From Bacillota bacterium (lineage in GTDB: Bacteria; Bacillota; Sulfobacillia; Symbiobacteriales; ZC4RG38): 64,000 nt of DNA. Every line of letters begins with the position of its first letter. Position 1 is the stretch's first letter. The notes under the pieces are model-generated. The model was given only the letters and a program-made list of their open reading frames with translations. It was not told the DNA's origin and ran no database searches. A program made the translations under genes and the position numbers. Shown here piece after piece: positions 992 through 18,218 of the stretch. The stretch covers positions 1 through 64,000 of the forward strand of contig JAKKUO010000003.1 in NCBI GenBank assembly GCA_021890795.1, given 5' to 3'.

Positions 992-3081
992 CGATCCCGG
1001 GCCTCCGGCGCCGCCGGCCGGCCCTGATCGCGGAGGACAACCCGCAGGAGGGGGGTGACCCCTGCGGTCACCGGACCCCAGGCCAGGGGCTCGATCCGCT
1101 CCGCTTGCTCCCGGTTGGTCACCAGCACCGGCGTCACCGCCTCTTTCCCGGCAGCCCGGAGCACCGCCCGGTCGAACCGGACCAGGGGGTCACCTGCCCG
1201 GACCCGGTCCCCTTCCCGGACCAGGGGGGTAAACCCCTGCCCCCGGAGCTGGACGGTGTCGATCCCCACGTGGAGGAGGACCTCCACCCCTTCGGGGCTG
1301 ACCAGCCCCACCCCGTGACCGCCGGGGAAGAGGTGGGCCACGGTGCCGGCGCAGGGGGCCACCACCAGTTCCCCCGCGGGCTGAACCGCCACCCCCTCCC
1401 CCACCAGCCCCTGGGCAAAGACCGGGTCCGGCACCTCCTCCAGGGGGACAACGGTACCGGTGACCGGGGCCACCAACACCACCTCCCGGGCAGTCCCTGG
1501 CCCGGGCTCCCGCGGCCCGGACGCCGGCGGGGTCGCGGACCGGGGCGCCCCGGCCGCTTCCCCGAGCGCCCCGGCGGCCTCCCCCCGGAGGAGGCGTTCC
1601 ATCTCCGCCCGGAGCATCTCCGCCCGGCCCCCCACCACCACCTGGAGGGCGCCGCCCCCGAGCCGGACCACCCCAGCGGCGCCGAGGCGCATGAGGGCCC
1701 GGTCGTCGACCCGGTCCGGGTCCGCAACGGTCACCCGGAGCCGGCTCATGCAGGCTTCGAGGGACCGGAGGTTCTCCCGGCCCCCCAGGGCCTGGAGCAC
1801 CGCCGCGGCCAGGTCCGGGGTCACCGGCCCCCGACCGGGCCGGGCACCGCCCGCCCCGGCCTCCCCGGCGCCTGGAGCCGGGGCGGCGGCTGCCGGGGCC
1901 AACTCCCCTGCCGGAGCCAACCCCGCGGTCGGGATCACCCCCACCGCCGGGGCCAGCCCCCCCGCCGGGGCTGGCCCGTCCTCCCCCGGCTCCTGGCCCA
2001 GGACCGGCAACCGGAACCGCCGGATGGCAAACCGGAACAGGGCGTAATAGAGGAAGAAATAGGGCACGCCGATGGCGACGATCCACCAGGGCCGGGTGGC
2101 CAGGGGGTAGTTGATGAGAAACATCGGCGCCGCATACCCCCAGAGCCGGACCCCCAGGGCGTAGGTGAGGGCCTGGGCCAGGCCGGTGAGGAGGATGTGG
2201 ATCGCCCACAGCCCCGGCGCGGCGAAGATGAAGGCAAACTCCACCGGCTCGGTGATCCCGGTGAGGACCGAGGTGAGAAGCCCCGTCACCATCAGCCCGG
2301 TCACCCGGCGCCGGTGGGCCGGCCGGGCGCTGTGGGCGATAGCCAGGGCAATGGCCGGGATGGCGAAGTTGTTGAAGACGAAGAACCCGGACATCAGCTT
2401 GCCCGCGGTGGGGTCGCCGGCGTAGAACCGGGCGATCTCTCCCATCACCGTGGTGCCGGTGGCCGGGTCGACGTAAGAGCCCAACTGGTACTCCACCACG
2501 TTGTTCAAGATGTGGTGGAGCCCCGTGGGCAGGAGGAGCCGGTCCAGGGCCCCGTAGGCAAAGGCCCCCAGGGGACCGGCGGCCGCGACCCAGTGGCCCA
2601 ACCGGGTGACCGCGCCCACCACCTGGGGCCAGACCGCGCCGTAGGCCAACCCCAGGGGGACCCCGGCCAGGGCCGCCAGGGTGGGGACCAGCCGCTTGCC
2701 GGAGAAGAGGCCGAGGAACTCGGGCAGCTGCACCCGGTGGCACCGGTGGAAGAGCCAGGTGGCCACCCCGCCGGCCAGCAGGCCCCCCAGCACCCCGGGG
2801 TTGAGCTGGGCCTCCCCGGCCACCGCCGCCGCCACCCCGGTCATCACCACGTAGCCCGTCCCCGCGGCGATGGCCGCCATCCCGTCGCCCCCGGCAAAGC
2901 CGACGGGCACCGCCAGGGCGAAGAAGAGGGGCAGGAAGTGGAAGACAACGGCCTGGCCGCCCGCGGTCAGCCACCCGAGCCCGGTCAGGAACCCGACGGC
3001 CTGGAGCACCGCGGCGACGGGCAGGAGCACGATGGGCACCATCAGGGTGGCCGCCAGCTTCTGGAAGAAGGCCCGGGACAC
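985..3081 (-). CDS. nagE: PTS sugar transporter IICBA, N-acetylglucosamine/glucose type
   Basis: A single 698-residue chain carries three phosphotransferase domains. The membrane IIC domain (about 1-365, roughly ten hydrophobic segments) is followed by a Pro/Ala/Gly-rich linker. IIB (about 425-500) has its phosphocysteine in EACMSRLR. IIA (about 533-685) has its active histidine in LLHVGIDTV. It would import and phosphorylate a hexose using HPr-phosphate. The GTG start at 3081 follows GGAGGGGTGA and lies three bases after the deacetylase stop. The neighbouring ChbG-like deacetylase and GH4 glycosidase favour an N-acetylglucosamine-type substrate over plain glucose, but specificity is inferred. 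The linker is unusually long and repetitive. Confidence 0.88.
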   Translation of the reverse strand: MSRAFFQKLAATLMVPIVLLPVAAVLQAVGFLTGLGWLTAGGQAVVFHFLPLFFALAVPVGFAGGDGMAAIAAGTGYVVMTGVAAAVAGEAQLNPGVLGGLLAGGVATWLFHRCHRVQLPEFLGLFSGKRLVPTLAALAGVPLGLAYGAVWPQVVGAVTRLGHWVAAAGPLGAFAYGALDRLLLPTGLHHILNNVVEYQLGSYVDPATGTTVMGEIARFYAGDPTAGKLMSGFFVFNNFAIPAIALAIAHSARPAHRRRVTGLMVTGLLTSVLTGITEPVEFAFIFAAPGLWAIHILLTGLAQALTYALGVRLWGYAAPMFLINYPLATRPWWIVAIGVPYFFLYYALFRFAIRRFRLPVLGQEPGEDGPAPAGGLAPAVGVIPTAGLAPAGELAPAAAAPAPGAGEAGAGGARPGRGPVTPDLAAAVLQALGGRENLRSLEACMSRLRVTVADPDRVDDRALMRLGAAGVVRLGGGALQVVVGGRAEMLRAEMERLLRGEAAGALGEAAGAPRSATPPASGPREPGPGTAREVVLVAPVTGTVVPLEEVPDPVFAQGLVGEGVAVQPAGELVVAPCAGTVAHLFPGGHGVGLVSPEGVEVLLHVGIDTVQLRGQGFTPLVREGDRVRAGDPLVRFDRAVLRAAGKEAVTPVLVTNREQAERIEPLAWGPVTAGVTPLLRVVLRDQGRPAAPEARDRS

Positions 3082-3084
3082 CGG

Positions 3085-3909
3085 TCACCCCTCCTCGGCC
3101 AGGTCCCCGTAGTGGCAGAGCTCCACGCCCGCCTCGGCCACCGCCTGCCGGACCTCCGGCGCGGTCAGGTCGTCCAGTTCCTGCTGCCGGGGGGCGATCC
3201 GGCCCGAGAGCCGGCGCAACGTCGCATCCACGTACCCGGGGTGGCAGACCAGCTCCGTCACCCCCGGCGGGGCCTCCCGGATCCACCCCAGGAGCCGGGA
3301 CCGGTCAAAGTCCGCCAGCCAGAGCCGGTTCGGGGACCGGAGGCCGCTCCGGGCGAGGATCTGGCTCGAGGCCGCCAGGTAACGCCGGTAGAGCCAGTGC
3401 CGGGGCCAATCCAGGACCCCCGGCCGCGGCAGGTCCCCGGGGCGGAGGATCCGGATGGCCGGGATGCCGTACCGGACCGCCAGGTCCGCGACGATGCCGG
3501 CCAGATGCGGCAGCCCGTGGACATGATGGTGGCTGTCCAGGTGGGTGGGGAGCCGGCCCACGTACTCGACAAACCGGCGGATCTGGGCCTCCCACTCCCG
3601 GCGAACCTCTTCCGGGCGAACCCGGTACCGGAGCCGCCACAGGCTCTTGACGAACCGGCCGTCCCGCCCCACCAGGGAGGGCACCGCGGCCGGGGGCAGC
3701 ACCGGCGGCCCGGAGGTAAGGTTGAGGTGGAGCCCCACCCCCAGCCGGGGCGCGCCGGCCAGCAGGGCCGCGCACTCCCGGCTCCAGGGCCAGTTCACCA
3801 TGAAGGTGGTGGAGGTGACGATCCCCTCCCGGTGGGCCTTCAGGATCCCCTCGCTCACCGCGGGGCTGAGCCCGAAGTCGTCGGCGTTGACGATCAGCCG
3901 GCGGCGCAC
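3085..3909 (-). CDS. ChbG/YdjC-family carbohydrate deacetylase
   Basis: This 274-residue protein begins with the family metal motif VNADDFGLSPAVSEGI. The second metal histidines are visible in HLDSHHHVHGLP (about residues 123-134). The family removes the acetyl group from N-acetylated sugars such as diacetylchitobiose-6-phosphate before hydrolysis; related HpnK proteins act on hopanoids. Position between a GH4 phospho-glycosidase and a PTS permease supports the sugar role. The GTG start at 3909 follows a GGGAGGGTGAGG site. It is translationally close to nagE (3-bp gap). Confidence 0.88.
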   Translation of the reverse strand: MRRRLIVNADDFGLSPAVSEGILKAHREGIVTSTTFMVNWPWSRECAALLAGAPRLGVGLHLNLTSGPPVLPPAAVPSLVGRDGRFVKSLWRLRYRVRPEEVRREWEAQIRRFVEYVGRLPTHLDSHHHVHGLPHLAGIVADLAVRYGIPAIRILRPGDLPRPGVLDWPRHWLYRRYLAASSQILARSGLRSPNRLWLADFDRSRLLGWIREAPPGVTELVCHPGYVDATLRRLSGRIAPRQQELDDLTAPEVRQAVAEAGVELCHYGDLAEEG

Positions 3910-3969
3910 CGGCCCTCACCCTCCCCTCTCCCCCGTCGTCCCGCCGGCCACCGCCTGGGCGGGGGGTCT

Positions 3970-8398: not shown

Positions 8399-8665
8399 TC
8401 AGATGCCGAAGCCGAAGCCCCCGGGATAGGCCCCGATGCCCGGGATACCGGCGGTGGTGGGGTAAGCGCTGGGTACGGTGGCCACCGTGGTCACCGGCAC
8501 CGCGAACTCGTAGACCCGGTAGATGGTCGCATTCGCCGCCGGGTACGAGGCGCCGCCGCCGAAGATGAAGTTGTCGTCCGCGCCGGCCTGGGCGCCGATG
8601 AACGGGGATACAGCAGGGGTGAAGCCCCCGGTAGTCCCGAAGGGGCCGAAACCTCCGAAGAACAT
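8399..8665 (-). CDS. Small Gly/Phe-rich coat-like protein (88 aa)
   Basis: An 88-residue protein very rich in Gly, Phe, Ala and Pro, with both termini built from GGFGPFG and GGFGFG runs. GGGGGTG lies about seven bases before the ATG. A sigma-K-like promoter (AC, 17 nt, CATAAGGTA) sits just upstream. Composition and promoter suggest a spore coat or exosporium protein made late in the mother cell; no named family is recognised. Its C-terminus resembles the tail of the Cys-rich protein at 17805 (GGFGPFGFG). It faces away from the ger operon, sharing a 180-bp divergent gap. Confidence 0.6.
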   Translation of the reverse strand: MFFGGFGPFGTTGGFTPAVSPFIGAQAGADDNFIFGGGASYPAANATIYRVYEFAVPVTTVATVPSAYPTTAGIPGIGAYPGGFGFGI

Positions 8666-8681
8666 GGTAACACCCCCGCCT

Positions 8682-8709
8682 TACCTTATGTGAACCGGGC
8701 GCCGGCGGT
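8682..8709 (-). promoter_or_regulatory. Sigma-K-like promoter of the 88-aa gene
   Basis: On the minus strand AC (8708-8709) is followed by 17 nt and CATAAGGTA (8682-8690), a full match to the sigma-K consensus AC-N16/17-CATAnnnTA. The predicted start lies about 10 nt before the RBS. Confidence 0.5.
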
Positions 8710-8849
8710 GCACGCCGGGCTACCCGTGGGCGCCTGGGTCTGCGCCCCCGGGGCGGCGGGGGCCGGACCACCCCCGGCCCAGGGTCGACACCCCCCGGAC
8801 CGCATACCGCAGGCGGTCGCCGGGCAGGTTAGCCGCCGGAGGGATGGCC

Positions 8850-10778
8850 GTGACGTGGTGGGAACGGCTGGCAGCCCTGCTGGACCCGGCGGCGACGGAA
8901 CCGCCCGCCGCCTTCACCCTGGGGGACCGGGGCGTACAGCCCCCGGAGGAACTGGAGGAGACCCGCCGCCGGCTGCGGGAGGTGCAGCAGACCGCCGAGG
9001 CCCTCCGCACCCGGGTGGATCGCTACCTCGCAGCCCTGGAGCAGTCCGGGGGCGGCCCGGGAGAGAAGGGGGCGGAAGCCTACCAGGGGATCGGGGACCT
9101 CTCCCCGTCCCTGGCGGAGAACCTGGAGCGGCTGCGGCAGCGGTTCCGGGCGCCGGACAACGCCGACCTGATCATCCGGGAGATCCAGGTAGCCACCCGG
9201 CCGCCGGTGCGGGCCGCGGTGGTCTTCCTGGAGGGGATGGCGGAGAAGGCGGTCATCAACAGCCACATCCTCCAGCCCCTGATGCTGCTGGCCCACCTGG
9301 ACCACCACCTGCAAGGGCCCGGGGACCCGCCCGCGGACTCCTTCCCGGCCAAAGGCGCCGCCCGGGGGCGGGAGGGCGGGGCCGGCAGGAGCCCCAGGGC
9401 CCCCGGGCCGGGGGCCGAGGCCGGGGCAGGGGACAGCGGCGGGGGGACCGACTGCCCCCTGCAGGCGATCCTGCAGCGGCTGCTGCCTGGGAACCAGGCC
9501 GAGGTGAAACCCGCCCTGGACAGCGTGATCGACGGCCTCCTGTACGGGGACACGGCCATCTTCGTCGACGGGTGCGACCGGGCGATCACCGTGGAGACCA
9601 AGGGGTTCCCGGTCCGCAGCGTCTCCACCCCCCAGCAGGAGATGGTCACCCGGGGCCCCCTGGACGCCTTCACCGAGGCCTTCCGGGTCAACATCGGCCT
9701 GATCCGGCGGCGGATCAAGGACCCCCGGCTGGTGACGGAGATCCTGCAGGTGGGAAGCCTCAGCCGGACCTACGTTGCGATCCTGTACGTGGACGGGGTG
9801 GTCAACCCCAAACTGGTAAGAGAGGTCAAGCGCCGGGTCAGCAGCCTGAAGGTGGACTACGTCGGGAGCAGCGGCGTCCTGGAGCAACTGGTGGAGGACC
9901 GGCCCCTCTCCCTCTTTCCCCAGACCCTCTCCACCGAGCGGCCGGACCGGGCCGCGGCCTACCTGGCCGAGGGGCACGTGGTGGCGCTGGCGGACAACAG
10001 CCCCTTCGCCCTGGTGCTGCCGGCCACCTTCTGGTCGCAGCTGCAGACCTCCGAGGACTACTACATCCGCTGGCCCTTCGGCTCCGTGCTGCGGTGGCTC
10101 CGGTTTGGGGCTCTGGTCACCGCAGTCCTGACCGGCGGCCTGTACATCGCCGCGGCCAACTACCACCACGACATGATCCCGACGGAACTGCTGCTCTTCA
10201 TCGCCGCCCGGCGGGAACAGGTGCCCCTGCCGGCCGGTCTGGAGCTGCTGTTCATGGAGGTCGCCTTCGAACTGATCCGGGAGGCGGGGACCCGGATCCC
10301 CAGCGTCATCGGCCCCACCATCGGCATCGTCGGCGCCCTGATCATGGGCCAGGCCCTGGTCGAGGCCCAGCTGGCCAGCCCGGTGGTGATCATCATCACC
10401 GCGCTCTCCGGACTGGCCAGCTTTGCCATCCCCAACTACAGCACCGCCTTCGGCCTGCGGACCCTGCGGTTCGCCTTCATCATTCTGGCCCTGGTACTGG
10501 GGATCTACGGCATCGCGGTGGGGCTCTTCGGGGTGGTTCTGCACCTGGCGGGCCTCCGGTCCTTCGGGGTGCCGTACCTCTCCCCCCTGGCCCCCCGGGT
10601 CCGGCACGCCCCGGATGTCACCCAGCGGGGTCCCCTCTTCGACATGGAGTTCCGCCCCCGGAGCATCCGCCCGGTGGACAGCCGGCGCCAGGCCCCGGTG
10701 GCCCGCCCCTGGGACCCGACGGTCCCCCGGCGGCTGCGCCGGCGGCAGAAGGGCGACGGCTCCGGCGAGCCCCGGTAG
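8850..10778 (+). CDS. Spore germination protein, GerA family (A subunit)
   Basis: A GerA-type receptor subunit of about 642 residues. It has a large N-terminal cytoplasmic part, the family stretch with GSLSRTYVAILYVDGVVNP near residue 310, then hydrophobic segments (about 420-580) including GPTIGIVGALIMGQA. GerA subunits sit in the inner spore membrane with B and C partners and respond to germinants. I prefer GTG 8850, six bases after GGAGGG, to the ATG at 8844 that touches it. A Gly/Pro/Ala-rich insert of about 60 residues near 155-215 is unusual. gerB follows after a 141-bp gap containing a tandem repeat. Confidence 0.93.
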   Translation: MTWWERLAALLDPAATEPPAAFTLGDRGVQPPEELEETRRRLREVQQTAEALRTRVDRYLAALEQSGGGPGEKGAEAYQGIGDLSPSLAENLERLRQRFRAPDNADLIIREIQVATRPPVRAAVVFLEGMAEKAVINSHILQPLMLLAHLDHHLQGPGDPPADSFPAKGAARGREGGAGRSPRAPGPGAEAGAGDSGGGTDCPLQAILQRLLPGNQAEVKPALDSVIDGLLYGDTAIFVDGCDRAITVETKGFPVRSVSTPQQEMVTRGPLDAFTEAFRVNIGLIRRRIKDPRLVTEILQVGSLSRTYVAILYVDGVVNPKLVREVKRRVSSLKVDYVGSSGVLEQLVEDRPLSLFPQTLSTERPDRAAAYLAEGHVVALADNSPFALVLPATFWSQLQTSEDYYIRWPFGSVLRWLRFGALVTAVLTGGLYIAAANYHHDMIPTELLLFIAARREQVPLPAGLELLFMEVAFELIREAGTRIPSVIGPTIGIVGALIMGQALVEAQLASPVVIIITALSGLASFAIPNYSTAFGLRTLRFAFIILALVLGIYGIAVGLFGVVLHLAGLRSFGVPYLSPLAPRVRHAPDVTQRGPLFDMEFRPRSIRPVDSRRQAPVARPWDPTVPRRLRRRQKGDGSGEPR

Positions 10779-10796
10779 GTCCGGGGCAGGGGAAGA

Positions 10797-10865
10797 GCCG
10801 GTGCGGTCTGACGGCGGCAGCCGGCGCGGTCTGACGGCAGCGGCCGGCGGGTCCGGCGGCGGGGG
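10797..10865. repeat. 23-bp tandem repeat inside the ger operon
   Basis: Two 23-mers starting at 10797 and 10820 share GCCGGYGCGGTCTGACGGC; a degenerate third starts at 10843. The array separates gerA from gerB, where most ger operons have almost no gap. Confidence 0.75.
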
Positions 10866-10919
10866 CCCGTGGCACTGGCGGCGGGGACCGGCAGGTTTGG
10901 CAGAGAAAGGATGGGGTCG

Positions 10920-12014
10920 ATGGAACAGGGCCACATCGGGGGCGGGCAGGCAGCCCTCCTGATCTTCACAATCCTGGCGACCAAGGTGCTGCTGGTCTAT
11001 CCCACCGCCATGATCCAGAATGGCCAGGGGGCCGGCTGGCTGCTGGTGCTGCTGAACGCTGCCTGGGGAGCGGCCGCGGTCTGGGTCCTGGCCGCCCTGG
11101 CCCGGCGGTTCCCGGGCCGGGGGCTGGCGGAGGTCGCCCAGGAGGTGGCGGGCCCGGTCCTGGGCACCGCCTTCGGCCTGACGGTGGCCGGTGGGCTGCT
11201 CTTCCTCGCCGCCCTGGTCCTCCGCCTGCTCTCCGAGTCCTTCATCATCGCCATCCTGCCCCAGACCCCGCCCAGCGTGCTAATCGGCACCGCGGTGGGG
11301 CTGGCGGTCTACGCCGGCTACCTGGGGCTGGAGCCCCTCGCCCGGGCGCACCAGGTGGTGATCCCCCCAGTGGCGGCCGCGATGGTGGTGGTGCTGCTCC
11401 TGGTCCTCCGGGAGGCCCAGGCCGGGTGGCTCTACCCGGTCCTGGGGCCCGGCCTGCCCACCCTGGCCCAGGCCAGCCTCTGGCACGCCGGCGCCTGGGT
11501 GGAAGTGGTCCTGCTGGGGATCTACGGCCACGCCTTCCGGCGACCGGGGGAACTGGGGCGGGCGGGGCTGTGGGGGGTGGTCGCCGCCGCTCTCGCCCTG
11601 GCAGCCACCACCGCGACCTTCACCGCGGTCTTCGGCCCGGAGGGGGCGGCCCGGGAGCCCTTCCCCCTCTACCACCTGGCCCGGATGGTCTACCTCGGCC
11701 GGTTCTTCCAGCGGGCCGAGTCCCTTTTCGTCCTGTTCTGGATTTCCGGAGGCCTGACCTACACCGCGTTGCTCCTCCACGGCGCCGCGGTCACCACCGC
11801 CCAGGCCCTGGGGGTGCCCTTCTACCGGCCCCTGCTCCTCCCCCTGGGGCTGCTGCTCTTCGGCCTGGCCCTCCTGCCCGGCAGCTACACCGAGACCCAG
11901 GCCTGGGATGCCCTGCTGCGCCAGTGGGCGGCCCTGCCCCTGTTCGGCATCCCGGTTCTGCTGCTGGCGGTGGGCCGATTGCGCCGGCGGGGAGGGCTTG
12001 CCCATGTCCGGTAG
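10920..12014 (+). CDS. Spore germination permease, GerB family (B subunit)
   Basis: A protein of about 364 residues with around ten hydrophobic segments throughout, typical of GerB, the amino-acid-permease-like B subunit that binds germinants. The N-terminus HIGGGQAALLIFTILATKVL matches the usual GerB opening. Starts at 10911 and 10920 are both possible; 10920 sits nine bases after AAAGG and fits the family better. It overlaps gerC by 11 bp, so the two are translationally coupled. Confidence 0.9.
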   Translation: MEQGHIGGGQAALLIFTILATKVLLVYPTAMIQNGQGAGWLLVLLNAAWGAAAVWVLAALARRFPGRGLAEVAQEVAGPVLGTAFGLTVAGGLLFLAALVLRLLSESFIIAILPQTPPSVLIGTAVGLAVYAGYLGLEPLARAHQVVIPPVAAAMVVVLLLVLREAQAGWLYPVLGPGLPTLAQASLWHAGAWVEVVLLGIYGHAFRRPGELGRAGLWGVVAAALALAATTATFTAVFGPEGAAREPFPLYHLARMVYLGRFFQRAESLFVLFWISGGLTYTALLLHGAAVTTAQALGVPFYRPLLLPLGLLLFGLALLPGSYTETQAWDALLRQWAALPLFGIPVLLLAVGRLRRRGGLAHVR

Positions 12015-13422
12015 ACGGGGGCAGGGAAGGGCCGGGAGCGGCGCCGGCCGGGGCCGTTGGCGGAGGGCCGCCCGGGTGCTGCTCCTTCTCCTGGCCCTTA
12101 GCCAGGGGGGATGCTGGGACCGGCGGGAACTGGAGGAGATGGCCTTCGTCCTGGCCCTGGGACTGGACCAGGACCCGGAGGGCGGCGGGCTGCGGATGAC
12201 CGCGATGGTCGCCATCCCCAACAAGATGGCCGGCGGCGGCCAGGACGGCGGCGGGGAGGAGGACACGGTGCTGGTCACCACCGCCCGGGCCGCCACGGTG
12301 CCGGAAGGGCTCAACCTGATGGACACCTACCTGGACCGGCGGATCTCCCTGGAGCACACGAAGGTGATGGTCCTCGGCCGGTCCCTGGCGGAGGAGGAGG
12401 GGCTCTGGCCCCTGATGGACTTCCTCGGCCGGTTCCGGTCGGTGCGGCGCACGGTGCCGGTAATGGTCGCGGAGACCACCGGCGAGGAGGTCCTGGCCGA
12501 GATCCAGCCGGTGCTGGAACGGGACCCCCATCGCTACCTGGAGTTCCTCCCCTTTACCACCCGGGACACCGGGCTCTCCCCCCAGGGGGCCCACCTGCAC
12601 GAGCTCCTCACCTTTACGGAGAACCCGGGGATCGAGCCGGTGTCCCACTGGGTCGCCCTCCGGAAACAGCCCGGGGGGATGAACACCGAAGGGGCCGGCA
12701 AGGAGGGCGCCCGGCCGGACGGCGGCGGGAAGCAGGGCGGGGGAGAGGGAAACGAAGGCAGCGAAGATGGAGGCAGCGCCGGCGGGGGCCCGGGGCAGGG
12801 GTCGCCGCCCCTGCCCGGCCCCGCCGAACCCCGGGGGTGGGAACCCGGGGCCCTGCCCCGCCGGGGCGGCCCCAACCTGGAGATGGTCGGCGCCGCGGTC
12901 TTCCGGGACGGCCGGATGGTAGGCACCATGTCCGGCGAGGAGGTCCGGAGCCTGAACCTCCTCCGGGGCCGGTTCCGCCGGGCCTTCCTGTCGGTTCCGG
13001 ACCCCCTGGCCCCGGGCCAGCAGGTGGCCCTGGAGATCCGCGCCGGGCAGGCCCCCCGGTACCGGGTCTCCCTCGCCGGCGGCCGTCCGGCCATCTCCGG
13101 CCGGGTCCCGGTGGAGGTGGAGGTCCAGGGGATCCCCAGCGGGGTGGACTACAGCCGGCCCGAGCATCAGGGAGCCCTGGCCAGGGCGGTGCAGGCGGAG
13201 CTGGAGGCGGGGATCCGGAAGCTCATCCGCCGGGCCCAGGAGGAGTGGCAGAGCGATGTCATCGGCCTGGGGCTCCGGGTCGCCCCCCTCTTCCCAACCT
13301 ATGACCGTTGGGGCGCCTACGGGTGGGACCAGCGCTTTCCCGAGGCCGCGATCGACATCCGGGTGGACGTCAATCTCCGACGGTTCGGAATGCAGCTGCA
13401 GCCGCCGAACCCAGGGAGGTGA
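12004..13422 (+). CDS. Spore germination lipoprotein, Ger(x)C family (C subunit)
   Basis: A 472-residue protein from ATG 12004, behind GGGGAGGG. A basic N-terminus precedes a hydrophobic stretch and lipobox ending in GGCWDRRELEE, the hallmark Ger(x)C start, so the chain is lipid-anchored at about Cys38. Domain 1 covers about 40-225; the C-terminal Ger(x)C domain covers about 290-465. Between them lies a Gly/Glu/Pro-rich stretch (about 228-285) absent from ordinary GerC proteins. It overlaps gerB by 11 bp and is followed by a small two-helix gene. Confidence 0.92.
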   Translation: MSGRRGQGRAGSGAGRGRWRRAARVLLLLLALSQGGCWDRRELEEMAFVLALGLDQDPEGGGLRMTAMVAIPNKMAGGGQDGGGEEDTVLVTTARAATVPEGLNLMDTYLDRRISLEHTKVMVLGRSLAEEEGLWPLMDFLGRFRSVRRTVPVMVAETTGEEVLAEIQPVLERDPHRYLEFLPFTTRDTGLSPQGAHLHELLTFTENPGIEPVSHWVALRKQPGGMNTEGAGKEGARPDGGGKQGGGEGNEGSEDGGSAGGGPGQGSPPLPGPAEPRGWEPGALPRRGGPNLEMVGAAVFRDGRMVGTMSGEEVRSLNLLRGRFRRAFLSVPDPLAPGQQVALEIRAGQAPRYRVSLAGGRPAISGRVPVEVEVQGIPSGVDYSRPEHQGALARAVQAELEAGIRKLIRRAQEEWQSDVIGLGLRVAPLFPTYDRWGAYGWDQRFPEAAIDIRVDVNLRRFGMQLQPPNPGR

Positions 13423-17668: not shown

Positions 17669-17728
17669 GCCAGCGGTCACAGGACACCGCCGACGGTCAG
17701 AAAACGCTGCCAGCGGTCACCCGTGGAA
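17669..17728. repeat. 20-bp tandem repeat, three copies
   Basis: Units start at 17669, 17689 and 17709. The first and third share GCCAGCGGTCAC; the second is degenerate (GCCGACGGTCAG). The last copy contains the AC of the adjacent sigma-K-like promoter. Confidence 0.7.
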
Positions 17729-17745
17729 CCAGTCAACATAAGATG
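17719..17745 (+). promoter_or_regulatory. Sigma-K-like promoter of the Cys-rich gene
   Basis: AC at 17719-17720, a 16-nt spacer and CATAAGATG at 17737-17745 match sigma-K (AC-N16-CATAnnnTA) except the last base. A perfect hairpin (17763-17769 with 17775-17781) lies in the leader just before the RBS. Confidence 0.45.
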
Positions 17746-17804
17746 CATCAGAACCTATCTTGCCGGCAGCCAGCCTGCCGGACGGTCTGTGCAGGAGGTG
17801 CCCC

Positions 17805-18218
17805 ATGAGCGAAAGAGGCGTCGTTTCGGTAAAGGTGAAGCCTGTACCCAAGTCCCACCATCACGGGGCCTCCGTCACACCCATCGGGTGCAGCTGCTCC
17901 ACCTGCGGATCCGGCCACGGCGGCCATCACGTCGGCCACGACGTGTTTCACGACCGGTGTGACCGCTGCGGCCAGCACCGGTCCTTCTGCCGGTGCGGTT
18001 TCGGCCATCACCCGGTCCAGGGGGTACACGCGGTGGACCCGTGCTTCTGCTTCCCGGCGCTGCCAGCGGTCGACCCCTGCTTCTGCTTCCCGGCACTGCC
18101 GGCCGTCGACCCGTGCTTCTGCTTCACCCCGTTCCCGGGCGGCTTCGGACCCTTCGGCTTCGGGACCCCGTTCTTGAACGCCGGCTTCTCGGGGTTCCCC
18201 TTCGGCCCCTTCATCTGA
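17805..18218 (+). CDS. Cys/His-rich repeat protein, probable spore coat protein
   Basis: A 137-residue protein from ATG 17805 behind GCAGGAGGTG. Residues 25-70 carry clustered Cys and His (CSCSTC, GHGGHHVGHDVFHDRC, CGQHRSFCRC). Then comes a near-perfect 12-residue repeat VDPCFCFPALPA (two full copies and a partial third), then a Gly/Phe/Pro tail. The content suggests disulphide cross-linking or metal binding, as in coat crust proteins such as CotY/CotZ, but no family is recognised. The sigma-K-like promoter supports late mother-cell expression. A strong terminator follows. Confidence 0.65.
   Translation: MSERGVVSVKVKPVPKSHHHGASVTPIGCSCSTCGSGHGGHHVGHDVFHDRCDRCGQHRSFCRCGFGHHPVQGVHAVDPCFCFPALPAVDPCFCFPALPAVDPCFCFTPFPGGFGPFGFGTPFLNAGFSGFPFGPFI

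Follow-up and report, generated by a model that had tools for sequence, protein, structure and literature searches.

The gene at 17805–18218 of the window (the whole 64,000-nt stretch of DNA analysed here) probably codes for a structural protein, specific to its lineage, of the outer spore layers (coat, crust or exosporium), produced late in sporulation by the mother cell under sigma-K. The original prediction of a spore surface protein gained indirect support from a sigma-K-type promoter that is conserved in a same-genus relative (G001) and from the occurrence of the same motif before sporulation genes and Cys-rich orphans, the location and assembly of the protein being what we infer from sequence and by analogy. 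General features of the locus are presented in Table 1.

Architecture of the protein

The ORF lies at the stated coordinates and is a real coding gene, as judged by its high GC3 (0.87), its good Shine-Dalgarno sequence and the in-frame indels relative to G001. Its 137-aa product contains 13 Cys, 12 His, 18 Phe and 20 Gly residues. All 13 Cys (positions 29, 31, 34, 52, 55, 62, 64, 80, 82, 92, 94, 104 and 106) occur in C-x-C or C-x2-C pairs, and the His residues lie mostly between the paired Cys in the same region. A high Cys content with repeated Cys motifs is a feature shared with the Cys-rich self-assembling proteins of spore layers. Among the open stretches of all six frames, this ORF held the maximum Cys+His density in the window (15 per 45 residues), the runner-up reaching 13 in a stretch with a single Cys. 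TRF identified a 36-bp repeat in 2.7 copies (18030–18125, 90% match, score 157), corresponding to two complete VDPCFCFPALPA units followed by one that diverges beyond CFCF, with three CFCF motifs in total. The His/Cys cluster, the tandem CFCF-containing repeat and the Gly/Phe tail proposed from the initial reading of the DNA were therefore all confirmed, the tail being Gly/Phe/Pro in composition. AlphaFold2 run on the single sequence was uninformative (mean pLDDT 40.5).

This composition would also suit a metallothionein-like buffer or store of the mother cell, with a non-structural role and with Zn or Cu bound by the paired Cys and the His residues interleaved among them. However, a soluble store has no need of hydrophobic CFCF repeats or a Gly/Phe tail, no metallothionein family was matched in Pfam or NCBIfam and no metal gene adjoins the locus, and we consider such a function unlikely. 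Metal binding is possible as an addition to the role of a structural protein of the spore surface.

Table 1 Features of the Cys/His-rich locus and of a second locus with the same promoter type (window coordinates).
Feature	Position	Strand	Basis
88-aa Gly/Phe protein (MFFGGFGPFG...AYPGGFGFGI), putatively in the same regulon and oriented divergently to gerA	8399..8665	-	motif upstream
Another sigma-K-type promoter, CACC-N16-CATAAGGTA	8682..8710	-	motif match
Sigma-K-type promoter: -35 CACC (17718-17721), 15-nt spacer, -10 CATAAGATG (17737-17745)	17718..17745	+	motif match
Leader inverted repeat CCGGCAG-ccagc-CTGCCGG (7-bp stem, 5-nt loop)	17763..17781	+	read directly
Shine-Dalgarno AGGAGGT	17793..17799	+	read directly
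Cys/His-rich orphan of 137 aa, predicted to belong to the spore coat or exosporium	17805..18218	+	ATG 17805, TGA 18218
Cys/His-rich region, residues 18-75 (HHH, CSCSTC, CDRC, CRC)	17856..18029	+	translation
VDPCFCFPALPA repeats (copies 18033-18068 and 18069-18104; partial VDPCFCF 18105-18125)	18033..18125	+	TRF
Gly/Phe/Pro tail, residues 108-137	18126..18215	+	translation

Distribution and genomic context

The protein was initially described as being of an unrecognised type, and this held: profile searches of Pfam and NCBIfam matched no family at E values up to 10, and matches in the PDB were chance matches, none of them significant. No match was found by tblastn against phages and plasmids. 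Matches across 398 genomes of the phylum were low-complexity (E above 7e-4) and were judged spurious. Among 61 related genomes, the protein was matched only in G001, and a scan of ~85,000 genomes, reaching close relatives only, added no relative beyond this one. At the DNA level, the DPCFCF pattern occurred once in one other genome of the class. By these searches, the protein is an orphan restricted to one genus.

The G001 relative is located on contig QGUP01000180.1 (Bacillota bacterium ZC4RG38), which ends after 51 codons of the gene. It retains MSERGVVSVxVKPVPKSHH and CSCSTCG and differs by two in-frame indels of 9 and 12 nt, deletions that together remove 7 residues. The CDRC pair is absent, but its place falls within the last 30 bases of a contig with 6x coverage. 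In a second G001 contig, which breaks in another gene of the motif set, ATA replaces the ATG start of the studied genome (G000) near the contig end. Sequence errors at G001 contig ends are therefore possible, and the relative may not truly lack the second Cys pair. The missing end of the gene was not recovered: the VDPCFCFPALPA repeat was found on no G001 contig, and the best G001 match to the downstream acyl-CoA dehydrogenase was a 68% paralogue.

Upstream of the gene are a GDPD gene and genes encoding an S-layer-homology protein, TatA and a DHDPS-family protein, and downstream are acyl-CoA dehydrogenase and MeaB; a germination operon, gerA-gerB-gerC, is also found in the window (8844–13422). 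The GDPD gene is present in the order-level relatives G003–G006, close to acyl-CoA dehydrogenase in the case of G003 and G004. No comparable Cys-rich ORF was found between or beside these two genes in G003–G006, so these loci hold no hidden orthologue. In G002, where acyl-CoA dehydrogenase is present and GDPD was unmatched, no such ORF adjoined the dehydrogenase. As order-level relatives keep the GDPD gene without its Cys/His-rich neighbour, the latter appears to be an insertion or novelty of the genus. The stretch between the GDPD and acyl-CoA dehydrogenase genes of G003 (L045, ~2850–3950) showed recurring KCTFV/KVHIRAN-like peptides in six frames and is apparently a DNA repeat array.

A sigma-K-type promoter and its conservation

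The promoter, CACC-N15-CATAAGATG, ends 59 nt upstream of the ATG. In C. difficile, sigma-K promoters carry AC at -35 where those of sigma-E carry ATA, and the CATA-type -10 is common to both (PMC3789822). Spacing between the two elements is 14–16 nt in B. subtilis sigma-K promoters (PMC517825). Both the -35 AC and the -10 CATANNNTA were present here with the right spacing, the last -10 base being G, not A. The site looks like the known sigma-K promoter form, from which sequence match we infer sigma-K control. The window holds no other match to MACM-N15-CATANNNTR, where 0.09 would be expected by chance, and the 2.79-Mb genome contained five matches compared to one for the reversed control. The promoter is identical in G001 and the DNA from promoter to start codon is nearly so, whereas the 50 nt above the promoter have diverged. 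Just above the promoter lies a degenerate tandem repeat (17669–17720, 20 bp x 2.6) with CGGTCA(C), which is not retained in the relative.

A small, Cys-rich orphan downstream of an S-layer-homology gene and tatA could be a secreted or surface protein expressed outside sporulation, e.g. a peptide precursor, but the conserved sigma-K-type promoter speaks against this, no signal peptide was apparent by eye and no maturation genes were seen among the annotated neighbours, making this reading quite improbable. Despite the abundance of long spurious ORFs in this genome, a chance ORF over repetitive GC-rich DNA is scarcely credible given the good Shine-Dalgarno sequence, the high GC3, the in-frame indels and the start and N-terminus conserved in the relative.

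The original prediction had also pointed to a perfect hairpin by the ribosome-binding site. The inverted repeat is real and perfect over its 7 bp and lies ~11 nt before the Shine-Dalgarno sequence, and its stem is kept in G001, with the loop alone changed (CCAGC to CGAGT). Nevertheless, it is ordinary for this GC-rich genome: comparable inverted repeats occur at ~2.7 per kb in the window, and the leader folding energy was no better than that of shuffles (z 0.26 and 0.05). A regulatory RNA was rejected, since the folding energy equals that of shuffles; the hairpin may stabilise the mRNA.

Comparison with known Cys-rich spore proteins

CotD of Bacillus is a small His/Cys-rich protein of the inner coat that is expressed in the mother cell. 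The 137-aa protein is likewise small and rich in His and Cys, with mother-cell expression predicted from its promoter, but it has no Pfam match at E values up to 10. The exosporium morphogenetic protein CdeC of C. difficile has three consecutive His residues, Cys motifs with NPC and CCRQGKGK repeats, and terminal Cys residues; it assembles into lamellae that respond to redox conditions (PMC7677010). Both proteins are Cys-rich, with three His in a row near the N-terminus and short central Cys repeats. In contrast, the repeat here is VDPCFCFPALPA rather than NPC or CCRQGKGK and the C-terminus is Gly/Phe; no Pfam or NCBIfam family profile detected a relationship. CdeC self-assembles, and for the protein described here self-assembly is proposed. 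In CotY, Cys accounts for 15 of 161 residues; the protein forms sheets held together by disulphides, and both heat and reductant are needed to dissociate them (PMC4950064). Relative to CotY, CotZ and ExsY of the crust and exosporium, the protein is similarly Cys-rich (13 in 137 residues) and would presumably form a disulphide-linked layer, but homology is undetectable and its Cys are arranged in regular pairs and repeats. By analogy, it would resemble CdeC and CotY in function, although no family profile places it with either.

As its ingredients, an HHH close to the N-terminus, Cys pairs, short Cys repeats and an aromatic Gly/Phe tail, parallel those of CdeC and CotY, the protein is predicted to be a disordered, self-cross-linking brick of the coat or exosporium. 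In the mother cell, sigma-K RNA polymerase would transcribe the gene at a late stage of sporulation, and the resulting chain would be mostly disordered. Its C-x-C and C-x2-C cysteines, together with nearby His, could form intermolecular disulphides and/or bind metal, and the VDPCFCF and Gly/Phe segments could stick to like segments. The predicted outcome is an insoluble, cross-linked film, as with CdeC and CotY. The spore location, the cross-links and the bound metal are all predicted features. A self-cross-linking protein of 137 aa would, if this is true, be a convenient small building block for materials.

The promoter motif and a candidate regulon

The motif was searched for genome-wide without regard to genes, using the reversed motif as a control. 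CACC-N15-17-CATANNNTR sites versus control numbered 14/6 in G000, 12/6 in G001, 19/6 in G003 and 10/7 in G002. The motif is thus mildly enriched overall (barely so in G002), and some sites are due to chance. Gene starts behind the G000 sites were picked with a simple scripted score and visual judgement, and a plausible start lay behind 12/14 sites (by inspection). These included a SleB/CwlJ-like Hydrolase_2 cell-wall hydrolase, a SipL/SPOCS protein, an Amidase_2 protein, a JAB protein and a small protein weakly like DUF6897. Orphans of coat-like composition were also found behind the motif. Two of them, L105 and L107, are Cys-rich and have orthologues behind the same motif in G001; the others are the 88-aa Gly/Phe protein and a Pro/Gly protein. 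In G003, the motif precedes SigK (TIGR02846), Hydrolase_2, SPOCS and two Gly/Phe proteins (L135 and L136), and the 88-aa protein is 70% identical to the one of these two that was compared.

In B. subtilis sigK is autoregulated by sigma-K, and a sigma-K consensus precedes C. difficile sigK (PMC3789822). Given this reported autoregulation, a motif before sigK is a good independent check. SigK is encoded in G000 (TIGR02846, 372.9 bits compared to a cut-off of 298.65), with a near-match, CACA-N16-CATAGACTT, upstream of the gene.

Lineage-specific coat proteins are common. The novelty is therefore modest: the gene probably encodes a coat protein of an ordinary type that had not been filed before, and the regulon to which it points is useful. 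A bolder reading, which we hold tentatively and on balance doubt, is of a new genus-specific architecture that combines a Cys/His metal clasp, CFCF repeats and a sticky Gly/Phe tail, as one of several unrelated Cys-rich proteins that share a sigma-K promoter and take the place of scaffolds of the CotY/CdeC type in a deep-branching lineage of spore-formers.

Outside Bacillus and Clostridioides, spore coats have hardly been charted, as homology searches cannot keep pace with the evolution of coat proteins. The promoter motif found candidate coat proteins beyond the reach of sequence search, comprising three unrelated Cys-rich orphans and an order-wide Gly/Phe family. Should sigma-K control be confirmed, coat components could be catalogued in this way throughout the deep-branching class.

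Several of the motif-linked loci displayed further features. The Cys/His-rich orphan at L105:1565–1978 and L104:990–1466 has a variable His-rich N-terminus and a conserved CVILFQFIQPPPPGS... core; it has weaker relatives in G002, G006, G007 and G019 and belongs to no Pfam family. The 115-aa Cys-rich orphan at L107:1130–1474 and L108:429–770 ends in a CGGRPCGCCGGGPCC tail, and the number and positions of its Cys differ between the two species. A protein of tandem GGMPFGK repeats behind the same motif (L116, G003:C1:538360 region) represents another coat-like candidate. Finally, three G001 contigs (C67, C148 and C231; L093, L095 and L097) end within ~70–210 nt downstream of motif promoters. With 630 contigs, fewer such cases would be expected, and the excess could stem from differences between strains or from coat-gene repeats that hinder assembly.
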